From a virus: DNA of 42,172 nt. The stretch spans positions 1-42,172 of IMG/VR virus record IMGVR_UViG_3300046010_004502. The stretch is one strand, 5' to 3'. The position numbers and the translations under genes were made by a program. The notes beneath the pieces are model-generated. The model was given only the letters and a program-made list of their open reading frames with translations. It ran no database searches and had not been told where the DNA came from. Of the stretch, positions 1 through 42,172 are shown in pieces. Position 1 is the stretch's first letter. Each line of letters begins with the position of its first letter.

Positions 1-1
1 C

Positions 2-150
2 TCTGTTCCGGAACTCGCTGCGTCACTTGTCGCCGCAACGTCGTCCATGTCTGCGGAACTACGCAGCGGAACGGAACTCGCTGCGTCACTTGTCGCCGCA
101 ACGTCGTCCATGTCTGCGGAACTACGCAGCGGAACGGAACTCGCTGCGTC
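2..150 (+). repeat. 63-bp tandem repeat, left end (identical to 41983-42132)
   Basis: A leader beginning TCTGTTCCGGAACTCGCTG is followed by 63-bp units encoding 21 residues (TSSMSAELRSGTELAASLVAA). Bases 1-150 are identical to 41983-42132, after which the left copy reads TATCC and the right copy ACTTG because the right end carries another unit. This is an assembly overlap inside a tandem repeat, so the unit number is unresolved. Confidence 0.9.
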
Positions 151-5131: not shown

Positions 5132-5133
5132 TC

Positions 5134-5454: not shown

Positions 5455-5934
5455 GTGAGACTCGGCGACCAGATCGGCTCCGTTCTCTACGAGGATTGGC
5501 GTTTCGTAGAGGAGGACATGCACAACATCAGCGGGCGTGTCACGGAGTACGACAGCGAGGCCAAGTTGGCTCGGCAGGAAGATACCGGCCATCTTGGCCT
5601 CGCTCGCCGAATCACGTCGCCCTTCGACGGTGGCGGCCACATCTGGGTTATCGCACGGAGGCTGCACGACGAAGATACTGGGGAGCCCCTCACGGGCGAG
5701 CCGGATGCCCGCGTCATTGACGAGCAGCGTCGTTCAGATGCGTTCCGCGTGGACAACCTTGATCGTTGGCGCAAGACGCAGGAGCGTATGTGGGTTCTCG
5801 ATCAGGAAATGCGTGCGGCGCAGGAGGTCGAGAAGAACATGGCGAACGCAGAGGAGTTCGTCTGGACGTTCCGACGCAAGGACTTGGGGCGTAAGGACAC
5901 GATCCTCGTGCCTGCCTCCGTGACCGATGGCTAG
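5455..5934 (+). CDS. Hypothetical head-module protein
   Basis: A 159-residue charged protein with a GTG start next to the preceding TAA. The C-terminal half (RWRKTQERMWVLDQEMRAAQ and onward) is predicted helical and rich in Arg, Glu and Gln. It overlaps the adaptor gene by 8 bases, so it is almost certainly co-expressed with the head-tail joining genes. I do not recognise the family; a head completion or connector accessory is possible from position only. Confidence 0.6.
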   Translation: MRLGDQIGSVLYEDWRFVEEDMHNISGRVTEYDSEAKLARQEDTGHLGLARRITSPFDGGGHIWVIARRLHDEDTGEPLTGEPDARVIDEQRRSDAFRVDNLDRWRKTQERMWVLDQEMRAAQEVEKNMANAEEFVWTFRRKDLGRKDTILVPASVTDG

Positions 5935-17903: not shown

Positions 17904-18800
17904 ATGAACGTCGTTCATGTTGATGAATACCTCGACGAGAACGCCGGGGAAATCGTCCTTATCCCAACGGGCGACTGGCATCTCGGAGCAACTGACGCTG
18001 CCGAGGAGAAACTGCGCGAGGACGTAAGGGCGTGGGCTGAGATACCGAACGCACGCCTACTTCTGATGGGCGACCTTATGGAACTCATCGACTACCGCGA
18101 CAAGCGGTTCTTTCCTCAGGGTCTGCCGCAGCGGTACGCAGATGCGCTGCTCAACTCTGACGGGGGAATCCCGTCCGAGTCCGTGCAGCACGCACTCGAA
18201 GTCCTTGAACCGTGGATCGGGAGTGGCCGCATCTGGGGGATCGTGACTGGTAACCACGAACGAAAGTTGGAGGTCACCCAGTCTCGTAACCTCACCGCCG
18301 AGGTTGCGAAGGAGGCCAACATCTCCCACCGCCAGTTGGGTTACGGCGGGTATGTCCATGTTTCGTTCAGGGTGCGCGGTCAAAAGAAAAGCACGATCGG
18401 TTCGTTGGTTATCCACGCTCACCACGGGTGGCAGACCGCTGGACGTGCAGGGTCGGGGAACCTGCTGAACGGAATGGAGCGGGAACTCGGGTACAGCAAC
18501 GCCGACATCATCCTGCGTGGTCACTCGCACGCTCCGCGTGTCGCTCAGGTTGTTCCGTCGCTCCGGGTTGAACGCAGCAACATCGTCGAGTGGCCGCGTG
18601 TCGTCGCATCGACTGGCACGTACAAGCGCGGGTCGGTGGTCAAGCAGGCAGGATCGCCAGCGATCGACACGTACGAATCGTTCAAGGGTTTCCGTGGGAG
18701 GCTGGACGGTAGCCTCGGCCCACCCATCATCACGATTCGTGCTAGGAATCGCTCAGGCTCGTCTACGAGAGCACGATTCGACTACGAGGTAACGGTATGA
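17904..18800 (+). CDS. Calcineurin-like metallophosphoesterase
   Basis: 298 residues with all metal-binding motifs of the calcineurin-like fold: DxH (Asp24, His26 in GDWHLG), GD (Asp57 in MGDLME), GNHE (residues 116-119), a His-rich turn HAHHG (171-175) and GHSH (206-209). Such enzymes hydrolyse phosphomono- or diesters. In phages relatives act on nucleic acid ends or nucleotides, but the substrate cannot be read from the motifs. It follows the holin by two bases and overlaps the next gene by 4 bases, heading the DNA-metabolism stretch. Confidence 0.85.
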   Translation: MNVVHVDEYLDENAGEIVLIPTGDWHLGATDAAEEKLREDVRAWAEIPNARLLLMGDLMELIDYRDKRFFPQGLPQRYADALLNSDGGIPSESVQHALEVLEPWIGSGRIWGIVTGNHERKLEVTQSRNLTAEVAKEANISHRQLGYGGYVHVSFRVRGQKKSTIGSLVIHAHHGWQTAGRAGSGNLLNGMERELGYSNADIILRGHSHAPRVAQVVPSLRVERSNIVEWPRVVASTGTYKRGSVVKQAGSPAIDTYESFKGFRGRLDGSLGPPIITIRARNRSGSSTRARFDYEVTV

Positions 18801-19069
18801 ACCAGACGGTCAAGGATGACCCGTGGCCTTTCATCCTCATGGAACTGGACGCAGCGTGGCGTGAGGCACGCGCTTCGCTGGACGAGATACCCCGGGGGGG
18901 TTTCGTAACGCAGGCCGAGGCTCGCTACCGCAACGGCGAGAGGTTGTACAAGAAGGAGTGGCTTGACTGGCCGCTTGACCGCTTCGAGGACGAGGCGATG
19001 CAGGAGTTGGTGGACTACATCTTGTACATAGCCATGCGTCGGGTGAAGTTCCCGATCCCGCTGGCCTAG
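18797..19069 (+). CDS. Hypothetical small protein, 90 aa
   Basis: ATG overlaps the phosphoesterase TGA. The C-terminal helix FEDEAMQELVDYILYIAMRR vaguely recalls the metal-binding helix (ExxxELxD) of MazG-like pyrophosphatases, but the protein is too short and lacks other motifs, so I do not assign that function. No membrane segment. Confidence 0.55.
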   Translation: MNQTVKDDPWPFILMELDAAWREARASLDEIPRGGFVTQAEARYRNGERLYKKEWLDWPLDRFEDEAMQELVDYILYIAMRRVKFPIPLA

Positions 19070-19078
19070 CGTTTGGAG

Positions 19079-19097
19079 ATCGGGAGGTGTACCCTCC
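19079..19097 (+). promoter_or_regulatory. Perfect 7-bp stem-loop in the 19070-19119 gap
   Basis: CGGGAGG / CCTCCCG with a 5-base loop lies at about 19081-19099 between two rightward genes. There is no following T run, so it is not a clear terminator; it may be an RNA processing site or attenuator ahead of the AGAGGAAC ribosome site. Confidence 0.35.
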
Positions 19098-19119
19098 CGC
19101 CTCACTAACCCAGAGGAAC

Positions 19120-19365
19120 ATGGACATACGAGACTTCATCGACGGTACGCAGGTTCAGAAGGATGACTACGCATCTCGCGTTCAGTCTGCTTCGATCATG
19201 TTCGCCACCGACCTCGTGCTGGTCATCGACCGATGGATTAGCGAAATCCCAGACGGGATGAAGCGTGACGTAACCGAGTTGGTCAACAACTTCTACGGGT
19301 ACGTCACCGAGTTCGTTGACATCAGCGGGCTCATGGAACATGCGAACGACGAGGAGGATGAGTGA
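19120..19365 (+). CDS. Hypothetical small protein, 81 aa
   Basis: The start at 19120 is preferred because CAGAGGAAC lies just upstream; an earlier in-frame codon at 19087 falls inside a stem-loop. The product is acidic at the C-terminus (NDEEDE), helical, and lacks recognisable motifs. It overlaps the nuclease gene by four bases (GTGA), so it is co-translated with the recombination genes. Confidence 0.55.
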   Translation: MDIRDFIDGTQVQKDDYASRVQSASIMFATDLVLVIDRWISEIPDGMKRDVTELVNNFYGYVTEFVDISGLMEHANDEEDE

Positions 19366-20216
19366 CACCACCTCGCAACGCGGTCCAGCGTAGGGGCGGG
19401 GGCAGGTTCTACCCGTACCCGCTCCACGCAGAGGCCGACGAGCAGATGGAGTACCCGTCGTCAACATCAGCGACTGGTATGTGGCCGAAGCCGTGGGCTA
19501 TGCCGTGGGCTTCCAAGATGGCTGCGGAACGTGCGGTCGAACTGCACAAGAGCGGTGCGCTGAGTGCGCTGCTTGAGCAGGGCGACAACATCGCACTTGA
19601 CGCAATCAAGTCAGCGTTCCGACACGCACGTGATGACGCGGCGATTGCCGGGTCAAAGGTTCACGAGGCGTGGGAGGAGTACCTGAAAGACCTGAGCAAG
19701 AAGCCGGACGACATTCGTTCGACTCTCTCAGAACTCGCAGCGTCCATGTTCGACGGACTGCTGGCGCTGACCGAGAAGTACAACGTGGAGTGGCTGCGGT
19801 CGGAACAGACTGCGTACAACCATGACCACCACTACGCCGGTACGTTCGATGGGATCGTTCTCATGGACACGCCGAGCGGTGTGCAGAAGTTGCTCGTTGA
19901 CATCAAGACGAGCAAGAGTCCCACACGTGACGAGTACGCCGCGCAACTTGCGTCGTACAGGTATGCGACGCACATCATCCATGCCGACGGGACCGAGGAG
20001 GTCATGCCGGAGGTTGATGGCTGCATCATCTTTCACGTGAGGCCGGATGGGGCGCACGCAATCCCGGTCAACACAGACCGTGTTGTGTTCGACTCATTCC
20101 TCGCCTGCCTTGCGATGCTTCGTGCAACGCATGGCAAGGAGCAACTGTTCGGTCCTCCGCTACCGGAGCCGGACGACGACAACAAGAATCTCAGCCAGAG
20201 AAAGGCAGACAAGTGA
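19362..20216 (+). CDS. PD-(D/E)XK nuclease (RecB/Cas4-type)
   Basis: 284 residues with GTG start after GAGGAGGAT. The core of the restriction-endonuclease-like fold is complete: GSKVHEAWE (His101, the RecB/Cas4 helix), Glu148, FDG with Asp163, LLVDIKTSKS with Asp180 and Lys182, then QLASYRYA with Gln195 and Tyr199. This spacing is that of RecB-family exonucleases such as phage Cas4-like and lambda-exo-like proteins. It is followed by an SSB-like gene and a RuvC-like gene, fitting a phage recombination or end-processing role. Confidence 0.82.
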   Translation: MTPPRNAVQRRGGGRFYPYPLHAEADEQMEYPSSTSATGMWPKPWAMPWASKMAAERAVELHKSGALSALLEQGDNIALDAIKSAFRHARDDAAIAGSKVHEAWEEYLKDLSKKPDDIRSTLSELAASMFDGLLALTEKYNVEWLRSEQTAYNHDHHYAGTFDGIVLMDTPSGVQKLLVDIKTSKSPTRDEYAAQLASYRYATHIIHADGTEEVMPEVDGCIIFHVRPDGAHAIPVNTDRVVFDSFLACLAMLRATHGKEQLFGPPLPEPDDDNKNLSQRKADK

Positions 20217-20680
20217 GCATTAGCGACGAGCAGTTGGCAGCGATGCAGGCAGAGGCACGCGCAGTTTCTGGCGGCGGTACGTTCGTGATCCTTGATGAGC
20301 CCGGCGAGTTCGTGGCGGGTACCGTCACGGGGCTGCACGAGGAGGTGACTTCGTTCGGCGAGGTCGAGGAACTGTCGCTGGTCAACATCCGTACCAAGTA
20401 CGGAGCGATGGACGGCGAGCGCAGGCTCCGGCTTTCGCGCTCCGTTCTCAAGCGTGAGTTGGGCAGCGAGTCGGAGAACGGTCCGGTCAAGCCCGGCCAG
20501 TCGATCTACGTGGAGTACCACGGGGAGGCGACCTCCAAGCAGGGTCGTCAGTTCCACAGGTACAGCGTCAAGCGGTTCGACGCCGTGCCCGAGGGCGAGG
20601 CCAGCAGCGCGGTGTCGGTTGACGCCGTGAAGGAGAAGGTGAAGGCCGCGTTTGACGCGGAGGAAATCCCCTTCGACTGA
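20213..20680 (+). CDS. Single-stranded DNA-binding-like protein
   Basis: 155 residues, GTG start overlapping the nuclease stop. The middle looks like an OB fold of beta strands (EFVAGTVTGLHEEVTSFGEVEELSLVNIR shortened here to its outline), with QSIYVEYHGEA and GRQFHRYSVKRFD. The C-terminus ends in an acidic tail and EEIPFD (150-155), very like the DDDIPF tip by which bacterial SSB recruits repair and replication enzymes. Gene context between a nuclease and a Holliday resolvase supports the role. Sequence resemblance outside the tip is weak. Confidence 0.65.
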   Translation: MSISDEQLAAMQAEARAVSGGGTFVILDEPGEFVAGTVTGLHEEVTSFGEVEELSLVNIRTKYGAMDGERRLRLSRSVLKRELGSESENGPVKPGQSIYVEYHGEATSKQGRQFHRYSVKRFDAVPEGEASSAVSVDAVKEKVKAAFDAEEIPFD

Positions 20681-20904
20681 TGGCCCCCTTAGGGTGGACA
20701 CCCGAGGGGACAGCAACATGGCAGGTTGCGAACGACGCGCTGCGCGCGTACTTCGCTGGTAGGCAGGACCCCCCTTGCCCGTGGTGTAGCGGGCAGGGGG
20801 GGTTCCTCAAGTTTTCGGACGAGTTACGTACGTTCGTTCCGGTCCTTTGCGAGGGTTGCTTTGGGACCGGGACGTGGAAAAGCGGAAGCGATGCCGACAG
20901 TTGA
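20680..20904 (+). CDS. Small zinc-knuckle protein
   Basis: 74 residues, start overlapping the previous stop by one base (TGATG). Two CxxC pairs, CPWC and CEGC, separated by about 23 residues with glycine-rich flanks (GQGG, GTGTW) resemble half of a DnaJ-type zinc domain. It probably binds zinc and may mediate protein or nucleic acid contacts. No enzyme domain is attached. It overlaps the next gene by 14 bases. Confidence 0.6.
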   Translation: MAPLGWTPEGTATWQVANDALRAYFAGRQDPPCPWCSGQGGFLKFSDELRTFVPVLCEGCFGTGTWKSGSDADS

Positions 20905-21100
20905 CCTGATAGACGAGATGCGTGACGCACGCGATGACATCTTGAAGATGATCCAGAAGCACGCTGGTAAGAGCGGTGCTTCGTTGTTGAGCGAGCGCGT
21001 TGAGTCATCATTCGAGTCACTCATTGAGTTCGCAGAAGATGAGCGTGTCGAATGGGAGAAGGTCATCAACTTCCTGATGGAGAAAGAGTTTGATGACTGA
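20891..21100 (+). CDS. Hypothetical small helical protein, 69 aa
   Basis: The ATG at 20891 follows AGCGGAAGCG and gives a 69-residue acidic helical protein (LIDEMRDARDDILKMIQKH). An upstream in-frame start would lie deep inside the zinc-knuckle gene. It overlaps the resolvase gene by eight bases. No family recognised; small helical proteins at this place can be recombination or replication accessories. Confidence 0.5.
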   Translation: MPTVDLIDEMRDARDDILKMIQKHAGKSGASLLSERVESSFESLIEFAEDERVEWEKVINFLMEKEFDD

Positions 21101-21557
21101 CCAACAGAAAGTCTGGGGCATCGACGTTTCCCCAACGAGGATTGCCGTCGCCGTTTACTCGGAGGATGGGACACGTTGGGCAAGGACGAGCGCGTTGAAC
21201 AAGGGGTCGCAATACGAGGCGGTACGCGACGCGCTGATCGAAGCAAGCAGAGAACACGGAGAGCCGACGGACGTGTGCGTTGAGCAGCCTGCACTTCCCT
21301 TCGCCCGTGCTGCGTACATGGCTGGCGCCGTGTGTGCAAGGACGGAGGATGCCGTGCTGGGGCGCTGGCCTCACGTCGTCATACGGTGGATGCAGCCGTC
21401 AGAGTGGCGGCGCATCGCCGGGCTTGGCGGTCGCGCATCCAAGCAGGACGTGTTCGACTGGTCCGTGATGATGGAGTTCAACCCGTCGGATCAGGATCAA
21501 GCAGATGCTTCGGCCATCGCGTACGCTCGCTACGTCGAGTTGATGGATGAGGAGTAA
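21093..21557 (+). CDS. RuvC-like Holliday junction resolvase / RNase H-fold nuclease
   Basis: 154 residues with the RuvC-type acidic tetrad: Asp11 in WGIDVSPTR, Glu64 in CVEQPA, and Asp135/Asp138 in DQDQADASAIAYA, the last helix being highly typical of RuvC family. RuvC cuts four-way junctions, in phages usually to debranch DNA before packaging. A TTG one codon earlier is possible, but the ATG at 21093 is better placed after GAGAAAGAG. It ends two bases before the PrimPol ATG. Confidence 0.8.
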   Translation: MTDQQKVWGIDVSPTRIAVAVYSEDGTRWARTSALNKGSQYEAVRDALIEASREHGEPTDVCVEQPALPFARAAYMAGAVCARTEDAVLGRWPHVVIRWMQPSEWRRIAGLGGRASKQDVFDWSVMMEFNPSDQDQADASAIAYARYVELMDEE

Positions 21558-21559
21558 CG

Positions 21560-22036
21560 ATGGACAGCGTTCGGGAATGGGCCGTTCGCTACGCCGAGCG
21601 GGGGTGGAAGGTGATCCCCCTGCACGGCGTTCGTGACGATGGTGCATGTACGTGCAGACTCGGCCACGAGTGCGACAGCCCCGGCAAGCATCCCTACTGG
21701 AGGGATTGGCCGTCTAAGGCAAGCGACAACATCGAACAGGTCACGGCGTGGTTCGACGACGTGACGCCACGGAACATCGGCATCGTGTGCGGTGCGTCGA
21801 ATCTCGTGGTGATCGACATTGACGACGAGGGAGGGGAGGCGATGGTTCTCCCCCTGATGGAGGTGGGGATTATCCCGCCATGCCCGCAGGTTCGCACACG
21901 CAGGGGTATCCACCTGTACCTGACGGGCAACGTGCCAGCCGCCAAGTTGCGGGGCATCGACATAAAGAGTGGCAACGGGTTCGTGGTGGCACCCCCGTCA
22001 CGCAGGGTGGACGGCGGGTACTACGAATGGGTGTGA
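21560..22036 (+). CDS. PrimPol domain protein (N-terminal part of a split primase-helicase)
   Basis: 158 residues that match the bifunctional primase/polymerase domain of the archaeo-eukaryotic primase fold: GWKVIPLH, Cys/His-rich CTCRLGHEC and GKHP (43-45), motif I IDIDD (Asp86, Asp88), motif II RRGIH (His118), motif III DIK (134-136) and FVVAPPS. It stops at GGYYEWV, where related proteins continue into a primase C-terminal and helicase region; here that region starts in the -1 frame at 22027. The fold makes RNA/DNA primers and can extend DNA. A frameshift, programmed or otherwise, or true separation are all possible. Confidence 0.85.
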   Translation: MDSVREWAVRYAERGWKVIPLHGVRDDGACTCRLGHECDSPGKHPYWRDWPSKASDNIEQVTAWFDDVTPRNIGIVCGASNLVVIDIDDEGGEAMVLPLMEVGIIPPCPQVRTRRGIHLYLTGNVPAAKLRGIDIKSGNGFVVAPPSRRVDGGYYEWV

Positions 22037-23424
22037 CAGAACACGCAGTCCCGTGGGATAGCGGGACACCAGAAGTAACGGACGAACTGGCCCGCTGGAT
22101 TTGGGCGGAGTCAGGTACGGAGCGTGTCACGCGGGAGCGCGTTGATGGTGCGGTAATCACGTACCCCGGAAGGAACAACGCGCTCGCATCTCTCGCCGGT
22201 TCGATGCGGCGGAGGGGAATGACGCAGCCCGAGATAGAGGCCGCCCTCGTTGCAACGAACGCAACGCGAGTCGAACCTCCTCTAGACGAGGACGACGTTC
22301 GCAGGATTGCCAAGTCGGTGTCCCGCTATCAGGCTGGCGACGACGTTCTCAAGTTGGTTGAGCGCGGCCAGTCAGACCCGGTATACGGGGAGGAATCCAC
22401 AGACGGGTTCTCGCTGACGACCATGACGTTGAAGCAGATAAGCGAGATGCCCAACCCCGGGTATCAGGAGTTGCTCGGGCCGCTCGTCTACCGTGGCCTA
22501 CGCACGCTGGTTGGTGCAGCGACTGGCGAGGGCAAGACCACGCTGGTCATGTGGATGATTCGCGCCATCATCGAAGGCGAGGGGTTCCTCGGATGGCAGG
22601 GGCTAGGCCCAGACGATGAAGGCAACCGGCCCAAAGTTCTTGTTATCGACGCAGAGCAGTCGGTACCAGACATCCAGCGTCTTGCGAACGAAACGGGGAT
22701 GTCGAACAGCGAGGACATCCACTACATCTCAGTTCCTGATGGGCTCCATCTCGGTGAGTCAACGAACGATGCGCTTCAGGTCGAGCGAATCATTGAGCAA
22801 CTGAGGCCGGATGTTCTCGTTGTTGACCCCGCCTATAAGGTCGCTTCGATCGACAGCAACAACGAGCGCGAAGTCGTGGACCTCATGCGGTTGTTCGATA
22901 GATGGAGGGCAGAGTATGGGTTCGCCTTCATCATGCCGGTGCACACACGCAAGGGCGACAAGAAAACGCCGGGCGGTGCGCCCACGCTTGACGACATTTT
23001 CGGGAGCGGTGCGTTCAGCCGTGGTGCCGAGGTAATCCTCGGGCTGCGTCAGGGTGAGCCGGGCTGGTCACGCATGTACGTGTGGAAGCACCGCCCCGGT
23101 GGGCTCAACAAGGGCGTCCACATAGACATGGCGTTCGACCGCGATACTGGTTTCTCACGAATCCACAAGGAGGGAATGGAAACGGTGCAGCAGATGGTGG
23201 AGTCCATGCTCGCCATGAACCCACACGGGCTGACCGTCGATGAAATGTCCGACCGTCTTGGGAAGTCGAAAGACCAGATTCGTAAGACGATCTCGCAGGC
23301 TGGGTACAACATCCACAGCGAGGCAATCCCGGGATCACGGAATAGGAAACTCTACAAACTCAGCGAGTCAGCCACGGTTGACGAGAACCTTCTCGCACGT
23401 TGGGAGGACATGATTGACGGATAG
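22027..23424 (+). CDS. PriCT-RecA-fold helicase (primase C-terminal plus ATPase)
   Basis: 465 residues from ATG 22027, overlapping the PrimPol gene by 10 bases in another frame. Residues about 45-100 (GRNNALASLAGSMRRRG and DVRRIAKSVSRY) are a PriCT-type primase C-terminal domain. A RecA-fold ATPase follows: Walker A GAATGEGKT (163-171), DAEQSVPDIQR, and Walker B DVLVVDPAY (Asp267), with HTRKGDKK and GSGAFSRGAEVIL downstream, like RepA-type hexameric helicases. The C-terminus carries a winged-helix pattern (LTVDEMSDRLGKSKDQIRK). It should unwind DNA and work with PrimPol at replication start. Ribosome site is weak, suggesting coupling. Confidence 0.85.
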   Translation: MGVTEHAVPWDSGTPEVTDELARWIWAESGTERVTRERVDGAVITYPGRNNALASLAGSMRRRGMTQPEIEAALVATNATRVEPPLDEDDVRRIAKSVSRYQAGDDVLKLVERGQSDPVYGEESTDGFSLTTMTLKQISEMPNPGYQELLGPLVYRGLRTLVGAATGEGKTTLVMWMIRAIIEGEGFLGWQGLGPDDEGNRPKVLVIDAEQSVPDIQRLANETGMSNSEDIHYISVPDGLHLGESTNDALQVERIIEQLRPDVLVVDPAYKVASIDSNNEREVVDLMRLFDRWRAEYGFAFIMPVHTRKGDKKTPGGAPTLDDIFGSGAFSRGAEVILGLRQGEPGWSRMYVWKHRPGGLNKGVHIDMAFDRDTGFSRIHKEGMETVQQMVESMLAMNPHGLTVDEMSDRLGKSKDQIRKTISQAGYNIHSEAIPGSRNRKLYKLSESATVDENLLARWEDMIDG

Positions 23425-24988: not shown

Positions 24989-25191
24989 TTCCTGCGCGGC
25001 TCGATCTTCTCAACGAGGACACGCTGGTTCGTATACGGAAACTCCTTGCCGTCGCCGATGCGTATCTTCGCCCACTTGTTGCCCACCTCAACGAGGTGCC
25101 CGAACCGCCATCGTTCGTTCTTGTCGCGCCATCTAACGACGGGATGGCCGTCGCTTTCGTCAATCAGGGCGCGTGCTTCATCTACGTTCAT
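24985..25191 (-). CDS. Hypothetical small beta-rich protein, 68 aa
   Basis: ATG at 25191 overlaps the stop of the glycosylase gene (ATGA) and is preferred to a GTG nine codons earlier. The product (HPVVRWRDKNERWRFGHLVEVG, KWAKIRIGDGKEF) looks like a small SH3-like or Tudor-like barrel. It overlaps the zinc-ribbon start by 4 bases. No function assigned. Confidence 0.6.
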   Translation of the reverse strand: MNVDEARALIDESDGHPVVRWRDKNERWRFGHLVEVGNKWAKIRIGDGKEFPYTNQRVLVEKIEPRRK

Positions 25192-25616
25192 ACCCGGTAC
25201 TCGTCGTTCGCAGGCCACACGTACGGGAGACTATCGGGAACGCCGGGGAACTGAGGTCCGTAGTGCGTCGCATCCTTGCGAATGAGGTTCGACTGGTGCG
25301 AACGGTGGAACTCGGTATCGCCGAACCACGGGGGCATCCGTGACGGACGAGGCCACGCCCTGTCTGTGAACTTTCCCAAAAGCGAATCCTTGAAACCCCG
25401 CAACACCCACACCATGCAGCAGGCTGACCCGTACTCCACCAACGCATCCTCGTACCCCCTCCACATCTGAACTGCCGGGTGATGCTGCCAACCGTAGTCG
25501 GGGTCGGCCAGCGCCTTCATTATCTGATACGCCTCCACCCGCTGCTTGCCTAGCCGCCTGTCGTCAAGTGCCTTCGCGCTCTTTACGAAACTCGGGTGGG
25601 GAAGGAATGTCTGCAC
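25188..25616 (-). CDS. MSMEG_6728-family / pyrimidine-dimer DNA glycosylase-like protein
   Basis: 142 residues from GTG 25616, which has TGGAGGCAGAAC upstream; an earlier GTG (25643) lies in a hairpin. The start MQTFLPHPSFVKSAKALDDR and RLGKQRVEAYQIMKAL, then WQHHPAVQMWRGYEDALVEYG, are characteristic of the MSMEG_6728 family, annotated as pyrimidine-dimer DNA glycosylases related to T4 endonuclease V and common in Actinobacteria. If functional it would start base-excision repair of UV damage in host or phage DNA. Catalysis is inferred from family only. Confidence 0.75.
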   Translation of the reverse strand: MQTFLPHPSFVKSAKALDDRRLGKQRVEAYQIMKALADPDYGWQHHPAVQMWRGYEDALVEYGSACCMVWVLRGFKDSLLGKFTDRAWPRPSRMPPWFGDTEFHRSHQSNLIRKDATHYGPQFPGVPDSLPYVWPANDEYRV

Positions 25617-25636
25617 GTTCTGCCTCCATAGACGTA

Positions 25637-25672
25637 GGGCCACCCGGCGACTCTCACTCGCTCGGGTGGCCC
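25637..25672 (-). promoter_or_regulatory. 10-bp GC-rich hairpin ahead of the glycosylase gene
   Basis: GGGCCACCCG (25637-25646) and CGGGTGGCCC (25663-25672) form a perfect 10-bp stem with a 16-base loop. It lies between the AbrB-like gene stop and the glycosylase ribosome site. It lacks a U run on either side, so it may be an attenuator, RNA processing site or weak terminator limiting read-through. Confidence 0.45.
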
Positions 25673-26634: not shown

Positions 26635-26847
26635 TTAGCCCTTCTTCGCGTCTGCGAGAAGTCGGAACAGGTTAGGTGCGACAACCCCCGTCGCACGTGA
26701 GATAGCGGAAACGGTTATCCCGCTATCACGCGCTGCAATAACTGCGTCAACCCACGCCTTTCGCGCATCGGACAACTGCGCTTCGAGGTTGCGCTTTGCT
26801 TCGAGCGTGTGCATCACGTCGCCCATGAAGTCTGCGTCCTGCGTCAT
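26635..26847 (-). CDS. Small HTH DNA-binding protein
   Basis: 70 residues from ATG 26847 with a consensus ribosome site (GGAGGTGAAC). The C-terminal half contains a helix-turn-helix: GITVSAISRATGVVAPNLFRLL. The N-terminal half is helical and acidic, perhaps a dimerisation helix. It is the last gene of the MoxR/vWA operon, two bases after the vWA stop, and faces a nested inverted repeat downstream, so autoregulation or control of the lipoprotein gene is plausible. Confidence 0.65.
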   Translation of the reverse strand: MTQDADFMGDVMHTLEAKRNLEAQLSDARKAWVDAVIAARDSGITVSAISRATGVVAPNLFRLLADAKKG

Positions 26848-26849
26848 GT

Positions 26850-28829
26850 TCACCTCCTTCCCTTCATCATGTTACGGACGAGGACGCCGAGTGCGTTCGG
26901 CAGGGCGGAGGCGTCAGCGACGCTGACGTGGTGCATGTGGTAGTCGGGGTCAGCGTACCCGCCGACACCGATACCGCCCGTCATAACCCCCTCGCTGTAC
27001 GCAAAGGCGATCTGGGCACGCACGTCCTCCTTACAATGCGGCTCGCCGTCGGTAATGACGACGATCATAGGGGCGGCAGCGCCACGCTTGCGGCTGGCAC
27101 CACGTGCCCACACAAGAGCGTCTGCCTCCAGCGTACCGCCAGCGTGACCGCCACGGACGCAGCGCAGGGCACGCTCGTACCGTGCGATGCTCATGCGATC
27201 GGTGCGCTGCGCCATGTCGAACGGGATACCGATGTGAACCCCGGTGCCGTACACACACAGCGCAACGTCCAGCCCGTGCACCTGCCGTGCTGCCTCGTAC
27301 ATGGACAGGCCAGCGTCGGCGATGTTGCGCCCGATGTTGCCGCTGCGAACGGACGATGATGCGTCAAGGCACAGGACGAGGGAGAAGTCGAGCGCACCCT
27401 TCGCACCCTGCTTGCGACGGAACGCACGGAGGTCGCCGATGCCGAGCCGCGTCGAACTCTTGGCGTCAAACGAACCGCGCCTGTGCCGCCCGGTCCACCC
27501 CCCGTTGGCGTTGTCCTGCAACGTACGGCGCAGCGTACGGACGACCATGCGGGTGACCGGAGCCATGCGCTGCGACGCACCCTTGTCGTTCGTCCAACCC
27601 TGCGTGCGGAAGTGACGGACGATCGTTTCGCCGGAGAGCGTGTCGTCGAACGAATCGCTGGCGATCTCATCGTCGTCGCTGTCAACGTTCCACTCGCCAC
27701 GCTTGCGGTCGGGCCGGGCAGTCTCGCCCGGGTCGCCGTTGCCGCCGCTGTTGCCGCCGTCCTGCGTGTCGGTGTCGTCGTCGGTGTCGTCGTCGGTGTC
27801 GTCGCCGTCACCATCGCCGTCGCCGTCCTGATCGTCACCCTCATCGGCGTCGTCGTCGGTGTCGTCGGCGTCGCCACCGTCACCATCGTCGGCGTCGTCG
27901 TCGGTGTCGTCGTCCTCGCCGTCGCCGCCGCCACCGGCAGCCTCATCGCCCTCGTCGTCCTGCTCGCCGCTGGTGCCGCCGCCGCCACCGCCCGTGGTGG
28001 TGTCGTCGTCCGTGCTGGTGGTGGTAGTGGTGCCGCCCTCGCCACCCTCGCCGCCCTCGCCGCCGCCTCCCCCGCCGCCACCGTTCAGGTGCGGTGCGAG
28101 AAGGTCGTACAGGGGACGCAGGTGTTCGAGCAGGGTCGCCGTGTCTGGTGCGTTGGTCGCCGAGATAAACGACGGACGCCCGCCGTCGATCACGGACTGT
28201 ACGGTTGCGTCCGGCAGCCCGGCGAACACGTCTGCGTTGGAGCAGCAACGCTCGGCGAACAGGACGATCATCACCTTGCGAACGATGTCGAACGATGCGT
28301 AGTTGGCGGCGTTGCCCGGCATCATGCGGTCGTTCTCAATCCGGCGCAGCATCTGGAAAGCGGGGACGACAGCCTCGCCCTTGTCCTCAATGCGTACGTC
28401 CTCCGCAAAGTTGACGGCGGTAAAGAAGTCGGCCCAATGCTCAGGCTTGCACCATGCGGGGCGCCTGATCTCCGTCGTGAACAGGATGTGGAACATCTCG
28501 TGGCACATGACGGACACCGCCTCACCACGTGTGATGTTGCGGTGGTTGCCGCTCTCGTCGATGGTGTACATCGACCACCTGAGGCGAACGTACTTGCCGG
28601 TGTTCTCGTCGATCGCCACGGCCCATTGTCCCCGGGTGTTATGGCGGGCGTTGATGGTGCGTCCGTCCCTGATGATGGCCGACGCCGTTGCGACGACCTC
28701 ACGTTCGGCGACGCTTGCTGCGTGTGTCTGCTCGTAGATGGAGATGTAGGGGCTGACGAGGTGCTCGCTCCATCGGGCAGGGTCAGCGGTGAGGGTGGAC
28801 GTAATCGTGGGCATCGTTGCGGTAGTCAT
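26850..28829 (-). CDS. HExxH metallopeptidase-like plus vWA protein (DUF2201/CobT-like)
   Basis: 659 residues from ATG 28829 (AGGAGGTACGCAC). Residues 1-250: a putative metallopeptidase domain with CHEMFHILFTT (His110, Glu111, His114) and NFAEDVRIED (Glu143) as third ligand. Residues about 250-370: Gly, Thr, then very Asp-rich linker, as in CobT. Residues about 478-655: von Willebrand A domain with MIDAS residues DASSS (489-493), Thr566 (GGT) and Asp594 (ITDGEP). This is the architecture of DUF2201 (metallopeptidase plus VWA-like) proteins that pair with MoxR/CobS ATPases. The MoxR ATPase is encoded two genes upstream. Substrate unknown. Confidence 0.85.
   Translation of the reverse strand: MTTATMPTITSTLTADPARWSEHLVSPYISIYEQTHAASVAEREVVATASAIIRDGRTINARHNTRGQWAVAIDENTGKYVRLRWSMYTIDESGNHRNITRGEAVSVMCHEMFHILFTTEIRRPAWCKPEHWADFFTAVNFAEDVRIEDKGEAVVPAFQMLRRIENDRMMPGNAANYASFDIVRKVMIVLFAERCCSNADVFAGLPDATVQSVIDGGRPSFISATNAPDTATLLEHLRPLYDLLAPHLNGGGGGGGGEGGEGGEGGTTTTTSTDDDTTTGGGGGGTSGEQDDEGDEAAGGGGDGEDDDTDDDADDGDGGDADDTDDDADEGDDQDGDGDGDGDDTDDDTDDDTDTQDGGNSGGNGDPGETARPDRKRGEWNVDSDDDEIASDSFDDTLSGETIVRHFRTQGWTNDKGASQRMAPVTRMVVRTLRRTLQDNANGGWTGRHRRGSFDAKSSTRLGIGDLRAFRRKQGAKGALDFSLVLCLDASSSVRSGNIGRNIADAGLSMYEAARQVHGLDVALCVYGTGVHIGIPFDMAQRTDRMSIARYERALRCVRGGHAGGTLEADALVWARGASRKRGAAAPMIVVITDGEPHCKEDVRAQIAFAYSEGVMTGGIGVGGYADPDYHMHHVSVADASALPNALGVLVRNMMKGRR
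27763..28080 (-). repeat. Simple-sequence repeat encoding acidic and glycine linker
   Basis: GTC/GTCGTC-rich microsatellite-like DNA, with 12-base near repeats GTCGTCGTCGGT, encodes the Asp/Gly/Thr linker of the vWA protein. Its length could change by slippage without breaking the frame. Confidence 0.8.
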
Positions 28830-28840
28830 GTGCGTACCTC

Positions 28841-29512
28841 CTAGTTGCTGAACTGGTCTGCGTGTACGTACCAACGGTCCTGCTTGCCGTTCTTTCCGTT
28901 CGAGTAGACCTCACCGCGCTCGCTCATCTTGGTGAGGGCGGAACGAATCTGGGCCACGGTCAGCGTGATGCCGTGCACATCCTGCACCACGCCGGTCTTG
29001 CCGCTCGTGTCCTCGGCGTCGGCAAGTCCGAACGATGAGTATGTGTAGCGGGGCTGACGGATGGTGAACGACGTGCCCTGCTGCTTCGACTTCATCGCCG
29101 TCAGTACGTACGCCTGCGCCGTTGCCGGGTTGACACGGCGTGCACGTACCCTGCCGGTCGTACCTGCGAGAGGGCTGGTGTACGGAGGCGGCTGCTGCTC
29201 ATCGTCCGTGTCCGTCGGGTCAGCGTCGGCCTCAGGCTGGGGCTCGCCCTTCGTGCCGTGCCTGCCGCCCTCCAAAGCGGGCAGCGTGTGCGTTGAGGGG
29301 ATGAAGCCGTGGCTATCCTGCTCGCCGAACGTAGACACGTGGCTCTCATCCGGCTCGTCCGTCTGCGTGTCGGGATCGGGGTTATCCGGCTGCTCAACCG
29401 GGTCGATGGTGGGCGTTGCGTTCTCCTTCGCCTGCATCCAAGCGAGGAACTGCTCGAACAGCGCAGCATCGACCGTGATGCTGCTCGTGTTCGTGGTGGT
29501 GGTGGTGTTCAT
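28841..29512 (-). CDS. Linker/winged-helix protein between MoxR and vWA genes
   Basis: 223 residues from ATG 29512 (AGGAGGTACACGCACG). N-terminal Thr-rich stretch, a helix (ALFEQFLAWMQAKENA), a long acidic Pro/Asp region (about 40-125), then RVRARRVNPATAQAYVLTAM and a C-terminal winged-helix-like segment (GITLTVAQIRSALTKMSERG, then DRWYV). It sits in the operon between the ATPase and the vWA protein with gaps of 28 and 11 bases. I do not recognise a family; it may be a DNA-binding or substrate-adaptor part of the MoxR system. Confidence 0.6.
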   Translation of the reverse strand: MNTTTTTNTSSITVDAALFEQFLAWMQAKENATPTIDPVEQPDNPDPDTQTDEPDESHVSTFGEQDSHGFIPSTHTLPALEGGRHGTKGEPQPEADADPTDTDDEQQPPPYTSPLAGTTGRVRARRVNPATAQAYVLTAMKSKQQGTSFTIRQPRYTYSSFGLADAEDTSGKTGVVQDVHGITLTVAQIRSALTKMSERGEVYSNGKNGKQDRWYVHADQFSN

Positions 29513-29540
29513 CGTGCGTGTACCTCCTGTCGTCCGTGGC

Positions 29541-30647
29541 CTACGCCTGCGGCTGGCCGTTGTCGTCGGTGACGAACATGGCAAGCACGTTGCGTACGGC
29601 CTGCTGCTCATCGGTGGGGAACTTGGCGATCAGCGCACGCTCCGCCGCCTCCGACCACGAAAAGAAGCCGGAGTCCAGCGCCTTCGCCCATGCCTCAAGC
29701 GAACGGAAGCCGACGGGGTGCGCGATCTCGCCAGCCTGACGGACACGGTGAACCACGTCGCACATGTTCTTGGCAACGACGGGGTCCAGCGTGGGGATAC
29801 GTGAGCAAAGGGCCAGCGCCTCGTCAACGGGGTCGGGGTAGTCGATCGTCGGCGTCCACGGCAGACGGTTCTCGAACGCAGGGTCCAACTCGTTCGTTCC
29901 GACGTACTCGTGGGGAGGGTTGGCCGTTGCGATGAGCACGAGGTCACCCCGGTCGATGACCTCGCCGGTCGGAAGCGTGAGGCGTGCGGTCCCGTCAAGC
30001 AGGGGCATGAGTGCTGCGTACTCGTTCACGTCACGAATGCGGTTGATCTCGTCGATGAGGCAGACGGTCGGCCTATCGTGCGAGAACCGCACGGCCTGCG
30101 CGATCATCCGGTCGTGCCACTTGACGGTCGGCGCCCCGGTCACGTCGTGGGCAGCGGGCAACTGCGTGCCCAAGATGGTGTCCTCGTTGGAGCCGGGCGT
30201 GATCGACACGATCACGAGGTTCCAGTTGAGGAGGGCGGTAAGCCACTCAACGGATGCGGTCTTGCCGCACCCGGTCGGGCCGAACACGATGGTGTTCGTG
30301 CGGGTGGACAGGGCGTAGAGCATGTCGTACAGGTATCCGTCCTGCCCGATCAGCGGGTGCGCCCCGGGAGAGGGCGAGTCGGGCACGCCGCTTTCGATGG
30401 GCACGTTGATGTTCGGGCGACCGGGCTTCATCGCCGTCACGTGCGTTGCGTCCGTGACGATGCCGCTGCCGGTGTTCGCACCGTAGATGTGCGTGTCCCG
30501 GGTGATGAACACGTCGTCGCGGGTGGCAACGGGCAGGGTGACGCCGACGTTGCCGTTGACACCCACGGAAACCGTGAGTGCGGGATGGTTGTCCACGTTG
30601 AGGGTGGCGGTGCCGTCACCGTGCGGGACGAGGGAAACTGTGGGCAT
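29541..30647 (-). CDS. MoxR/CobS-type AAA+ ATPase
   Basis: 368 residues from ATG 30647, preceded by CAGGAGGTCACCCGT; an earlier start at 30710 lies in the promoter. A beta-rich N-terminal region (1-95) is followed by Walker A FGPTGCGKTA (122-131), Walker B VCLIDEINR (Asp199, Glu200), sensor 1 ATANPP (Asn243) and FENRL (Arg261) in a MoxR-type core with GSNEDTILG and TGEVIDRGD. MoxR ATPases act with vWA partners to remodel or metallate target proteins. Head of an operon driven by the P1 promoter. Confidence 0.87.
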   Translation of the reverse strand: MPTVSLVPHGDGTATLNVDNHPALTVSVGVNGNVGVTLPVATRDDVFITRDTHIYGANTGSGIVTDATHVTAMKPGRPNINVPIESGVPDSPSPGAHPLIGQDGYLYDMLYALSTRTNTIVFGPTGCGKTASVEWLTALLNWNLVIVSITPGSNEDTILGTQLPAAHDVTGAPTVKWHDRMIAQAVRFSHDRPTVCLIDEINRIRDVNEYAALMPLLDGTARLTLPTGEVIDRGDLVLIATANPPHEYVGTNELDPAFENRLPWTPTIDYPDPVDEALALCSRIPTLDPVVAKNMCDVVHRVRQAGEIAHPVGFRSLEAWAKALDSGFFSWSEAAERALIAKFPTDEQQAVRNVLAMFVTDDNGQPQA

Positions 30648-32839: not shown

Positions 32840-32878
32840 AAAAAAAAGGGCGCCCCTCCCGCGTGGGGAGGGGCGCCC
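32840..32878 (-). terminator. Strong intrinsic terminator for the 32905-33276 gene
   Basis: On the minus strand a perfect 13-bp stem, GGGCGCCCCTCCC with a 5-base loop, is followed by eight T residues (the A run at 32840-32847). It lies 26 bases past the stop of the leftward gene and prevents that transcription from entering the iteron region. Confidence 0.9.
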
Positions 32879-32904: not shown

Positions 32905-33276
32905 TCACGCCTGCGACGCCTGCCACTCGGCGAACGCCTTAGCCTGATCGCCCGTAATGGTCACCGCGTCGGTGGCCGGGGCGTCGGCGGGCGCCGCGTC
33001 GGCCTTCACGGCCGCGACGGCCTGCCGCCACGTGGCCAACGCCTGCTTCGTCCCCTGCCCGCCAATGCCCGCGTTCGGCAGGTGGCGGCGCATGGCGCCG
33101 GAAAACGTGGTGCCGTGCTGCGGGTGGGCGTTCGACTTGTACCAACCCTTCACGATCTTGTGGGCCTTGATGTACTCGAACGCGGCCACGGCGTCCGGGT
33201 GTGGCTTCCGCTTGTCACCGGTGCCCGTCCAAAGCGACTTCGCGCCCCACGTCTTGCTGCGATCGTACTCGGCCAT
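32905..33276 (-). CDS. Hypothetical protein, 123 aa, under P3
   Basis: ATG 33276 follows ATGGAGTGCATC; the longer start at 33327 lies within the P3 -10. The product is basic and aromatic in the first half (AEYDRSKTWGAKSLWTGTGD) with KIVKGWYKSNAHPQHGTTF and an Ala-rich helical C-terminus. It is transcribed alone, from P3 to a strong terminator, so it is probably made early and at high level. No family recognised; an origin-binding or host-interacting role is possible from its place next to the iterons. Confidence 0.65.
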   Translation of the reverse strand: MAEYDRSKTWGAKSLWTGTGDKRKPHPDAVAAFEYIKAHKIVKGWYKSNAHPQHGTTFSGAMRRHLPNAGIGGQGTKQALATWRQAVAAVKADAAPADAPATDAVTITGDQAKAFAEWQASQA

Positions 33277-33295
33277 GATGCACTCCATTCGTATT

Positions 33296-33314
33296 CGCCG
33301 GACCGTTTCCGGCG
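33296..33314 (-). promoter_or_regulatory. 5'-leader stem-loop
   Basis: CGCCGGA/TCCGGCG, a 7-bp stem with a 5-base loop, sits in the leader between P3 and the ribosome site of the 32905-33276 gene. A 5' stem-loop often stabilises phage mRNAs. Confidence 0.45.
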
Positions 33315-33322
33315 ATGCATAC

Positions 33323-33363
33323 ATCATGACAAATCGAAAAGTCCCTGCTCAGAGCAACTTTTT
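33323..33363 (-). promoter_or_regulatory. Promoter P3: inverted repeat plus extended -10
   Basis: AAAAAGTTGCT-CTG-AGCAGGGACTTTT, then TTTGT and CATGAT (-10, 33323-33328) on the minus strand. Same fixed spacing as P1 and P2. It drives the single gene 32905-33276. Confidence 0.7.
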
Positions 33364-35855: not shown

Positions 35856-36175
35856 TGCCGCTCCGTAATCCAGAAGGCGGGCTCACCGCCGCAGGACGCG
35901 CTCATTACCAGCGCAAGGAAGGCGCCAACCTCAAGCCCGGCGTCAAGAACTACTCGTCGGCGTCCCCCAACGATAAGAAGCGTTGGATCAGTTGGGCGTC
36001 GCGCTTCTACGGCCAGAAGAACCTGCCCCCGATGAAGAAGCCGAACGGACAGCCGACCCGCGCTGCGCTCACCGCTGCTGCGTGGGGCGAGGCAGTTCCG
36101 TCGAACGAGGCTGCTGCGCGTCGCATCTATGCGAAGGCGCTGTCACGAAAGAAGGCGATGGGTCTTGGCGAGTAA
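35855..36175 (+). CDS. DUF6321-like phage protein
   Basis: 106 residues, GTG start sharing a base with the previous TAG. GGLTAAGRAHYQRKEGANLKPGV, then KKPNGQPTRAALTAAAWGE, are the conserved parts of a family (DUF6321) recurrent in phages of many bacteria, function unknown. Basic and Ala-rich. Commonly next to DUF3008-like genes, as here. Confidence 0.7.
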   Translation: MPLRNPEGGLTAAGRAHYQRKEGANLKPGVKNYSSASPNDKKRWISWASRFYGQKNLPPMKKPNGQPTRAALTAAAWGEAVPSNEAAARRIYAKALSRKKAMGLGE

Positions 36176-37703
36176 CAGCCCGAGAAATCCGCTTGCCGCT
36201 GTTCTTTTTGGCGGCGTTCGTGGCGGTACGTCTAGGCGCGGTAGCAACCCAGCGGCAGGCGCGTCTGGGCGCCGTGGTGTCTCACCTTCAACTCCGCCTC
36301 CGCCTCCGCCTACGCCTACGCCTCCGCGACAGCGTAGTTCTGGAATGGACATCATCCGTTCGTCTGCTTCATCTGGAACTGCGCGTCCGTCCCTTCCTGC
36401 TCGTTCGCCACGTGACCCGTCGAACATCCTCGGCCAGACCTACAGCCGTACATCTCCGTTTGGTTCTGCCACGGCAACGCAGCGTGCGTCTGGGGCTAGC
36501 CTCGGAAAGACCCTTTCCTCGATTGGCTCCGCAGTTTCATCTCAGGTTGCGGCGATCGACCGTGATCTCCGCTCAACCATGATGAGGCCGCGTAGCGCAG
36601 TACGCACCCCCGCTCCTCGTCGCTCACCGCTCGTTCCCACGCAGCCGAGTCAGGCTGGCGGTCAGGCCGTAAACATACGGCGCGGACCGAACGTTCCGAG
36701 GATGGCTGACCAGTGGCGTCGTGGTGCACGTCCTGCCGAGTTCGGAAGGGTGCGCGAGTCTCCGATGAACAAGCCCGGGATGCTGAACATCCCCCGCGCT
36801 GGAAAGAAGTTGGAGAAGATGGTCGCTGGGGCAGACCTCCCCAAGCCTCCCGGGTTTGGAGAGGGAACGGGCGGAGCCCCGTCCAAGCCGAAGTCTCCAA
36901 CTCCTCCGAAGCCGACGCAGCCTGCTGCCGCCCCCGAGGGCAAGGTCAACCTACCTAAGGCGCCGAAGAAGGTAACTCCTCCAAAGCCTCAGGTGACGAT
37001 CACGGCTGCTCCGTCGCCGACGAAGCCGACGCAGCCCAAGACGATGACGAGCCCCGCTCCGACTCAGGGAAAGAAGCGGATAGAGCCGAGAGAGGTGACG
37101 AGCGCGGGTAAGGTTTCGCTCGTTCACGAGGGTGGTCGCGCGTACAGGCTCCAGCACTCTGCTGGCTACAGCGTAAACCTGCCGTGGAATCCTAAAAAGA
37201 CCGGTGACATCAACGAAAAGGCCGCTGCCAAACTCGTAAGCGATGTCGCCGGAAAGCAGCCAGAGGCGACCCCTCCAAAGCCGAAAACAGTCGCGCAACT
37301 TACTGACAGGCAGAAGGAGAAGGCGGTCGCAATCTACGGTGGAACGAGCAAGAAGGACCCGTACAAACTGTTCGTTGATGACCTGAATAAGGCCGCTGTG
37401 CGTCGCTCTGAAAAGCGTGCGACACGTCTTGTTACAGAGTTCGGCAACGACGCTTCTGCGAGGGATGTTTTCAACATCAAACGCAGCGGCGGACGACAGA
37501 TCGCAATCTCGAAGGGACTCGGCCTAATGAACCTCGGACTCGGCGCAGTCGGTATGGCTCCGAGTATCGTTCGACTTGCGCGTGGCGCAAGTCTGGGTTC
37601 ACTCGCTGGGCCTCCCCCGGGCACGCGACCGCAGGACATCGTGTACACGATGCGTAACAAGAAAACTGGAAAGACGTACAAGATCGGCGGTAGTTGGTCG
37701 TGA
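36165..37703 (+). CDS. Proline-rich structural protein, 512 aa
   Basis: Start chosen at TTG 36165 (MASNSPRNPLAAVLFGG), overlapping the previous gene by 11 bases; an ATG at 36129 would add an unlikely Arg-rich stretch. The N-terminal 60 residues contain poly-Pro/Thr (TPPPPPPTPTPP), a central region has PKSPTPPKPTQPAAAPEG and repeated PKP, and around residue 310-340 a short beta domain (KVSLVHEGGRAYRLQHSAGYS). C-terminal helices have Ala/Gly-rich LGLMNLGLGAVGMAPSIV. Composition suggests an internal or tail virion protein. Confidence 0.55.
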   Translation: MASNSPRNPLAAVLFGGVRGGTSRRGSNPAAGASGRRGVSPSTPPPPPPTPTPPRQRSSGMDIIRSSASSGTARPSLPARSPRDPSNILGQTYSRTSPFGSATATQRASGASLGKTLSSIGSAVSSQVAAIDRDLRSTMMRPRSAVRTPAPRRSPLVPTQPSQAGGQAVNIRRGPNVPRMADQWRRGARPAEFGRVRESPMNKPGMLNIPRAGKKLEKMVAGADLPKPPGFGEGTGGAPSKPKSPTPPKPTQPAAAPEGKVNLPKAPKKVTPPKPQVTITAAPSPTKPTQPKTMTSPAPTQGKKRIEPREVTSAGKVSLVHEGGRAYRLQHSAGYSVNLPWNPKKTGDINEKAAAKLVSDVAGKQPEATPPKPKTVAQLTDRQKEKAVAIYGGTSKKDPYKLFVDDLNKAAVRRSEKRATRLVTEFGNDASARDVFNIKRSGGRQIAISKGLGLMNLGLGAVGMAPSIVRLARGASLGSLAGPPPGTRPQDIVYTMRNKKTGKTYKIGGSWS

Positions 37704-41377: not shown

Positions 41378-42172
41378 ATGACTCTCGTACTCATTCTTGT
41401 ACCCGCTGCGGGCGTTGAGTACGACGTATTAGCAACCGCCACAGCGTCAACGACGCTCGCGGCATCGGCAACGCTCATAACCAGCAAGGCGGCGCAGTCT
41501 CCAGTAGATGTGTCTGCATCGCTATCCGCCGAACTGCGTGACAAGACGGTATTCGGTGTCGCAGAGTGCAACACTTTTCTCGGTGCGTCTGCCACTCTAA
41601 GCGGTGGATCACAGGCCCTTTCTGCGTCGATCGCGTCGATCTCATCCGTTGACGCCCTGTATCTCAGGCAGCGAAACCGCACCGCGACGGTTTCATCTGA
41701 GTCATCTCTTTCCGCTTCGGTAACTAATGGAACCGAAGTCGCTGCATCAGTTGTCCAGTCGAGTGCCTCGATCTCCGCTGAACTCCGAAGTCAGACTAAG
41801 ACTGCGGCAGCGGAGTCAAATGTGTTCCTCACCGCAACCGCAGAGTTGCGTGAGGGGACCGAGGTTGCCGCATCAGTAGTTGCTTTTGTCGCTTCGGTCG
41901 CAGCATCTCTGACCACCGGACAACCGGACTTCGCCAGCGCAACCGTCGGTTCTTCCGTCGGTTTGTCGGCATCCATTACAAACTCTGTTCCGGAACTCGC
42001 TGCGTCACTTGTCGCCGCAACGTCGTCCATGTCTGCGGAACTACGCAGCGGAACGGAACTCGCTGCGTCACTTGTCGCCGCAACGTCGTCCATGTCTGCG
42101 GAACTACGCAGCGGAACGGAACTCGCTGCGTCACTTGTCGCCGCAACGTCGTCCATGTCTGCGGAACTACGC
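41378..42172 (+). CDS. Repeat-rich fibre-like protein, N-terminal part (continues at window start)
   Basis: ATG 41378; open to the window edge with no stop. The 265 residues here are Ala/Ser/Thr-rich with degenerate copies of ISAELR-x-GTEVAASVV throughout, becoming exact 21-residue repeats near the end (SAELRSGTELAASLVAATSSM). The gene resumes at base 2 and ends at 331. Such periodic low-complexity proteins near tail genes are often fibres or surface-exposed virion proteins; a solenoid or trimeric fold would fit. Function and copy number are uncertain. Confidence 0.7.
   Translation, partial: MTLVLILVPAAGVEYDVLATATASTTLAASATLITSKAAQSPVDVSASLSAELRDKTVFGVAECNTFLGASATLSGGSQALSASIASISSVDALYLRQRNRTATVSSESSLSASVTNGTEVAASVVQSSASISAELRSQTKTAAAESNVFLTATAELREGTEVAASVVAFVASVAASLTTGQPDFASATVGSSVGLSASITNSVPELAASLVAATSSMSAELRSGTELAASLVAATSSMSAELRSGTELAASLVAATSSMSAELR
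41983..42172 (+). repeat. 63-bp tandem repeat, right end
   Basis: Begins with the same leader as base 1 and carries at least two and two-thirds 63-bp units before the sequence stops. Bases 41983-42132 equal 1-150; the remaining 40 bases continue the unit. The right copy has at least one more unit than the left. Confidence 0.9.

Follow-up and report, generated by a model that had tools for sequence, protein, structure and literature searches.

Genes resembling cobS and cobT are widespread and unexplained in tailed viruses (they are core genes in cyanophages), resistance plasmids and integrative elements, where annotations usually label them vitamin B12 or porphyrin genes. In jumbo phages, a pair consisting of a MoxR ATPase and a metallopeptidase-vWA protein (group 2.2) has been described, with a proposed role in virion assembly (Iyer et al., 2021; PMC7824862). 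Viral cobST genes have been reported in viruses from eight host orders and proposed to serve B12 synthesis (Liu et al., 2021; PMC8651126), and a MoxR/VWA block is common to IncP-7, IncH and IncT plasmids and SXT/R391 (2009; PMC2642839). A search of the literature available turned up no experimental studies of cobST in phages or plasmids. Here we describe a four-gene module built around such a pair in an uncultivated phage of ~42 kb, IMG/VR record IMGVR_UViG_3300046010_004502, which was analysed over its whole length of 42,172 bases (the window). Judging from sequence comparison, it is very likely that the module is a phage form of the mobile-element MoxR-(zincin-vWA) machine, a lineage apart from true cobaltochelatase.

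Composition of the module

Four minus-strand genes, which follow one another and span exactly positions 30647-26635, encode a MoxR/CobS-type AAA+ ATPase, an acidic protein with a winged-helix-like domain, a vWA protein with an N-terminal HExxH domain, and a small helix-turn-helix (HTH)-like protein (Table 1). Each gene is preceded by a GGAGG-type site, and the gaps between the genes measure 28, 11 and 2 bp. Coordinates, frames and gaps agree with the tight leftward order given in a preliminary description of this DNA, which also assigned the genes to one operon with a shared early promoter. The adjacency of the four leftward genes stands, but they are embedded in a longer leftward cluster (~32193 to 24073) and do not form an isolated operon. 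The promoter was not recovered: a scan for sigma-70-like sites, which may not suit the host, gave 0 sites where 1.3 were expected. A plus-strand open reading frame (27483-28844) across the acidic linker was judged to be a shadow frame.

The ATPase carries the motifs by which MoxR-type AAA+ proteins are recognized, of which Walker A and Walker B had been named in the preliminary description. Walker A, LIDE, the sensor 1 asparagine in ATAN and the arginine of ENR (arginine finger) are kept in all four phages that carry the module, the other three being L002, L003 and L016, in which the protein is 68-70% identical to that of the window. It also matches phrog_249 (E 4e-28), a CobS-like family with the PHROG label 'porphyrin biosynthesis'.

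The third gene provides the vWA partner, and the earlier assignment of a metallopeptidase-like N-domain in front of a vWA domain is borne out by its HEMFH motif, for which 0 matches were expected in shuffled sequences, its VWA match and its complete metal ion-dependent adhesion site (MIDAS), in which D489, S491, S493, T566 and D594 are invariant in three phages. The N-domain is 40-51% identical to that of the window in L002, L003 and L016, and N..ED..IE is kept in most phage and plasmid relatives. A Pfam scan at E<=1 returned nothing for the N-domain; at the same threshold neither PF13203 nor PF09967 (DUF2201-type MoxR partner), families previously suggested for profile searches, was matched. 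The motifs favour, with some reserve, an active remodeller or protease.

The winged-helix-like character of the middle gene agrees with an AlphaFold2 model, in which the C-terminal segment reaches a predicted local distance difference test score (pLDDT) of 70-86 and the whole chain a mean of 54, and with a Foldseek search, which returned mostly winged-helix proteins (best E 9e-3). The protein is 26-34% identical to its homologues in L002, L003 and L016, of which the one in L003 matches phrog_1123 (E 8e-5), a family of unknown function; tblastn gave no phage relative. A match to DUF3150, which marks the plasmid modules described below, was sought in this gene and not found. The last gene also retains its earlier assignment as a small HTH gene: its homologues are 37-40% identical in L002 and L003 and 21% in L016, where the gene is very divergent and recognized mainly by its position.

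Table 1. Features of the module and a neighbouring gene, in window coordinates. Gene starts (the higher coordinate of each module gene) are consistent with Shine-Dalgarno (SD) sites.
Feature	Position	Strand	Evidence
MoxR/CobS-type AAA+ ATPase, 368 aa, first module gene	29541..30647	-	AAA_5 E 1e-17; SD aggagg before ATG 30647
Walker A GPTGCGKT, residues 123-130	30258..30281	-	Translation; GxTGCGKT invariant in four phages
Walker B LIDE, residues 197-200	30048..30059	-	Invariant in four phages
Acidic protein with C-terminal winged-helix-like domain, 223 aa	28841..29512	-	No Pfam match (E<=1); homologues in L002, L003, L016
HExxH (zincin-like)-acidic linker-vWA protein, 659 aa	26850..28829	-	VWA E 5e-6; N-domain hhalign to mobile-element CobT-like family
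HEMFH, residues 110-114, predicted zinc-binding active site	28488..28502	-	H, E, H invariant in four phages; kept across phage and plasmid relatives
NFAEDVRIE, residues 140-148, candidate third zinc ligand E143	28386..28412	-	N, ED, RIE invariant in N-domain alignment
Very acidic glycine-rich linker, ~residues 251-385	27675..28079	-	Sequence; similar linkers in phage relatives
vWA domain, MIDAS DASSS (residues 489-493), T566, D594	26859..27380	-	Pfam VWA 499-639 in long-ORF numbering (ORF, open reading frame)
Small HTH-like protein, 70 aa	26635..26847	-	Weak HTH_IclR (E 0.013) and MarR_2 matches; homologues at same place
Pyrimidine-dimer DNA glycosylase (DenV-like), neighbour, not clearly part of the module	25188..25643	-	Pyr_excise E 3.5e-21

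Mobile-element relatives and the true cobaltochelatase

Viral proteins labelled 'CobT' share one plan, in which HExxH...N..EDxRIE is followed by an acidic linker and a MIDAS vWA domain, and are encoded beside a CobS-like ATPase. The plan is found in Gordonia phage GMA6, Brevibacterium phage Cantare, cyanophage S-SM1 (as 'peptidase'), Roseobacter phage CRP-810, PhiR41_1 and SSU5. In HHTV-2 it is split over two genes, with the N-domain in gene 2 (HEVQH...NVLEDNHID), and Gordonia phage BirksAndSocks has kept HExxH and not the ED motif. ORF 4283-5626 of HHTV-2, used as an N-domain row (L004), proved to be the wrong gene, as gene 2 carries the real N-domain, and that row is to be disregarded. The same plan occurs on IncC and MOBH plasmids, beside DUF3150 and inside ssb-bet/RecT-exo operons, and in Desulfovibrio, near DUF3150 (by Pfam) and ERF-like and exonuclease-like genes (labels read by eye). 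Phage copies of the pair lie near replication and recombination genes (gp46/47/45/44, DNA polymerase III, SSB). In one Desulfovibrio metagenome-assembled genome (MES5; L043-L047), five contigs encode the CobS-like ATPase and there are five CobT-like matches; DUF3150-like or ERF-like genes adjoin several of them, and these copies are perhaps a multi-copy mobile element.

The window protein has the features of this set, namely an N-terminal HExxH followed by N..EDxRIE, an acidic linker, a C-terminal MIDAS vWA domain and a MoxR ATPase gene in the same cluster. Its N-domain matches the mobile-element CobT-like profile (hhalign 94.7%, P 6e-8), with HExxH and EDxRIE aligned. The composition had been called unrecognized in the preliminary description; its HExxH-vWA part is the standard MoxR-associated vWA architecture of phages and plasmids (PMC7824862; PMC8651126).

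Compared with the jumbo-phage pair, known here by its description (PMC7824862), the arrangement of an AAA+ MoxR gene adjoining a gene for a vWA protein whose N-terminal domain is a metallopeptidase is alike, whereas the module of the window resides in a ~42-kb phage, has conserved winged-helix and HTH genes and is removable. The viral cobST pairs (PMC8651126; cyanophage 'peptidase'/cobS, Gordonia, SSU5, HHTV-2) combine the ATPase with a HExxH-acidic-vWA protein of equal motif order, but identity to the window proteins is low (~19-26% for the ATPase, 16-20% for the vWA protein), no winged-helix or HTH partner was recognized in them, and the window protein stays under the CobT Pfam thresholds. 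The MoxR-DUF3150-vWA modules in ssb-bet-exo operons of IncC/MOBH plasmids (SXT/R391, R478, Rts1 and pCAR1 relatives; PMC2642839) likewise have the ATPase and a HEAAH...ED.RIE-vWA protein, with one more gene that lies between them or at their side. That gene is DUF3150 in the plasmids and the winged-helix gene in the window, where neither a single-strand annealing protein gene nor an exonuclease gene is directly adjacent.

The aerobic cobaltochelatase CobS-CobT also consists of an AAA motor and a vWA adaptor, and the N-domain of CobT is distantly homologous to the mobile-element family, but CobT lacks HExxH. Among 299 genomes from the phylum of a Cycloclasticus metagenome-assembled genome (G019), 93 had a PF06213 match, and HExxH was present in 0 of the 30 top chromosomal CobT proteins (E ~1e-96 or better). 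Eleven low-scoring matches comprised four with an N-terminal HExxH...ED and seven without it. A DUF3150 gene lay near all four of the former, two of which also had ssb and one of these bet and exo; a CobS-like gene lay near all seven of the latter, with a weak DUF3150 match in one. Chromosomal CobS/CobT-like pairs without HExxH include L095 and L096; the neighbourhood of L095, the only one read of the seven, looked metabolic (sulfoacetaldehyde/phosphotransacetylase-type genes), and this is perhaps another metabolic MoxR-vWA pair.

The N-domain of the window protein gave no match to the true CobT profile (0.2%). Its vWA half matches both sets (P 8e-34 for the mobile-element profile, P 4e-8 for true CobT), and the two profiles are homologous over their length (P 8e-34). 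The window protein gave no match at the gathering scores of PF06213 and PF11775, and the L003 protein reached only E 0.07 with PF11775; the vWA proteins of L002 and L003 match CobT phrogs at about 1e-8. A profile with phage CobT included matched a solved CobT (9uka) at 3e-42, although the alignment used for these PDB searches carries the wrong HHTV-2 row (ORF 4283-5626), whereas a profile from the window group alone gave no match to it. In a tree of the ATPases, the CobS clade does not include the four phages, which sit close to HHTV-2, GMA6 and Cantare; deep support is moderate and branches are long. CobN and B12 genes were not seen in the window, and no other cobalamin gene was recognized among its scanned proteins. 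Because true CobT lacks HExxH and the window N-domain fits the mobile-element set and not true CobT, a role in B12 synthesis is unlikely, as had been concluded in the preliminary description.

Occurrence among related phages and genomic setting

A search with the vWA protein led to the IMG/VR phages L002 and L003, and a search with the terminase to L016 and several phages with 76-91% identical terminases. All four module genes recur in L002, L003 and L016, which are uncultivated phages. The gene order in L016 is that of the window (ATPase, winged helix, vWA, HTH), and the vWA and winged-helix genes are swapped in L002 and L003. The preliminary description had proposed to look in relatives for the second gene, its 'linker', and the HTH gene in the same operon; both are present in all four module-bearing phages. 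For the closest pair, L002 and L003, the ratio of nonsynonymous to synonymous substitution rates is 0.18 for the ATPase, 0.58 for the winged-helix gene, which evolves fastest, 0.35 for the vWA gene and 0.13 for the HTH gene, which argues that the four genes are real.

The module is accessory: it lies in a variable interval and is removable between close relatives. Phage G006 (43,853 bp), taken as a closed genome because of its exact 123-base terminal repeat, is collinear with the window (identities of 85% for the capsid, 64% for the portal, 58% for the helicase and 79% for the terminase), and no ATPase or vWA match was found in it. In G004, the interval from the terminase to the p77/resolvase genes is contiguous and filled by other genes, including one for a DUF7227 protein, and the module is absent. 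The absence from both genomes speaks against the module being indispensable for virion assembly in this lineage. Terminase identity to the window is 86-89% in the module-bearing phages and 79% in those without the module; presence thus follows the terminase and could reflect one gain or loss. The other relatives are fragments and uninformative on this point. Elsewhere, a DNA-level search among INPHARED phages found no module, tblastn with the window vWA protein gave no match, scanning viral contigs with alignments of the vWA protein and the ATPase recovered only L002 and L003, and scans with the CobT proteins of CRP-810 and Cantare recovered nothing.

In both the window and L016, the module has a DenV-like glycosylase gene downstream of it; none is found in the L002 and L003 genomes, G004 or G006. 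In CRP-810, CobT is also followed by a gene annotated as pyrimidine dimer glycosylase. A strong minus-strand terminator-like hairpin (32848-32878; 13 pairs, then T8) separates the gene at 32905-33327 from the leftward cluster. The start of the window (1-165) recurs at its end (41983-42172) inside a ~73 bp tandem repeat, with 165/190 positions identical in register; an exact end repeat was looked for and not found. Given this recurrence, the record probably represents a genome that is closed and nearly complete. The major capsid protein gene (3827-5131) has as relatives in the collection Arthrobacter and Cellulosimicrobium phages of ~46 kb (23-24% identity) and one uncultured record, which suggests an actinobacterial host. 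A tRNA-Gly(CCC) predicted at 36809-36904 lies within a 524-aa ORF (36129-37703) and is probably spurious.

Possible function and alternative explanations

We tentatively propose that the module encodes an accessory ATP-driven machine that remodels or proteolyses DNA-bound protein complexes and is guided by the two small proteins; that its target is DNA-bound is a slightly more doubtful part of the proposal. By analogy with NorQD, RavA-ViaA and midasin, the ATPase would form a hexameric ring, dock the vWA protein and pull or twist it, thereby straining the linker. The MIDAS would grip the target protein, to be cut or remodelled by the N-terminal zincin domain, while the winged-helix and HTH proteins may recruit the machine to DNA or to complexes bound to it. 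The machine might then act when phage DNA is recombined, replicated or repaired. A DNA-bound client is suggested by the winged-helix signal, by the HTH-like gene and by the recombination and replication genes to which the family is linked. Several points weigh against the proposal. The module lies outside the recombination block (17904-23424, plus strand), in the variable leftward cluster, and in phages many genes lie close to replication genes. The sequence signals behind the winged-helix and HTH assignments are weak and the supporting model is of low confidence (mean pLDDT 54), and the AlphaFold2 model of the zincin domain, built from four sequences, was poor (pLDDT 58) and gave no structural match in Foldseek.

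The preliminary description favoured host takeover or anti-defence. Such a device, or a phage-borne exclusion system, would unfold or cut a host or competitor protein, and we consider it rather unlikely. It would suit an accessory module in a variable interval, MoxR-vWA pairs do occur with peptidases in predicted counter-invader systems (PMC7159879; PMC12839542), and the HTH gene could be a regulator. It has no direct support, however, and the early promoter was not recovered. None of the PADLOC models for MoxR-vWA defence systems is matched, with only weak AAA matches to IetA/Mad8, and no VMAP, iSTAND or FtsH partner was recognized with Pfam or PADLOC, which may miss remote iSTAND versions. 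It also speaks against such a device that members of the family occur on plasmids, in integrative elements and in lytic cyanophages, and that most of them have DNA genes as neighbours. Virion assembly, with the module as chaperone and maturation protease, is unlikely, although the published proposal covers the same domain architecture and that paper cites a MoxR-vWA pair reported for archaeal virus tail assembly (PMC7824862). G006 has the same structural genes without the module, which lies far from the structural genes in the window, and in most relatives the pair is near replication and recombination genes.

Metal insertion offers a further, improbable, explanation, in which a NorQD-like chaperone would activate a phage or host metalloenzyme and HExxH would merely bind metal. 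NorQD inserts iron by means of MoxR and vWA proteins (PMC13036017), and HExxH could bind metal without cutting, but it is two DNA-binding-like genes, and no metalloenzyme gene, that are consistently linked to the module. Very improbable is a viral CobST that lends motor subunits to host CobN. The published B12 proposal (PMC8651126), the phrog_249 label and the CobT phrog matches of L002 and L003 point to it; the failure of the window protein with both CobT Pfam families, its N-domain unlike that of true CobT, the retention of HExxH throughout the mobile-element family, the partly supported position of the ATPase outside the CobS clade and the lack of other cobalamin genes point away from it.

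Returning to a machine for DNA-bound proteins, a far-reaching version is distinctly unlikely: the module would found a class of phage DNA-protein-complex proteases, in which the MoxR ring powers the zincin-vWA adaptor and the winged-helix/HTH pair targets proteins bound or crosslinked to phage DNA. This would be an analogue, in working and not in descent, of p97-SPRTN/Wss1, and by extension the 'cobST' genes of tailed viruses and ssb-bet-exo operons would be misnamed. A repair island of this kind would be in keeping with the pyrimidine-dimer glycosylase gene that adjoins the module in two phages.

The ATPase-(HExxH-acidic-vWA) pair was already known from phages and plasmids, but as a removable set of four genes it seems to be new. 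Of most use are two results, namely that HExxH separates mobile-element proteins from true CobT and that one phage group offers a natural presence/absence pair. With these and the order-swapped winged-helix and HTH companions, the B12 and virion-assembly explanations can be put directly to the test. The module hints at DNA-bound proteins as the targets of such machines, and not at a part in making B12 or in building the virus particle.

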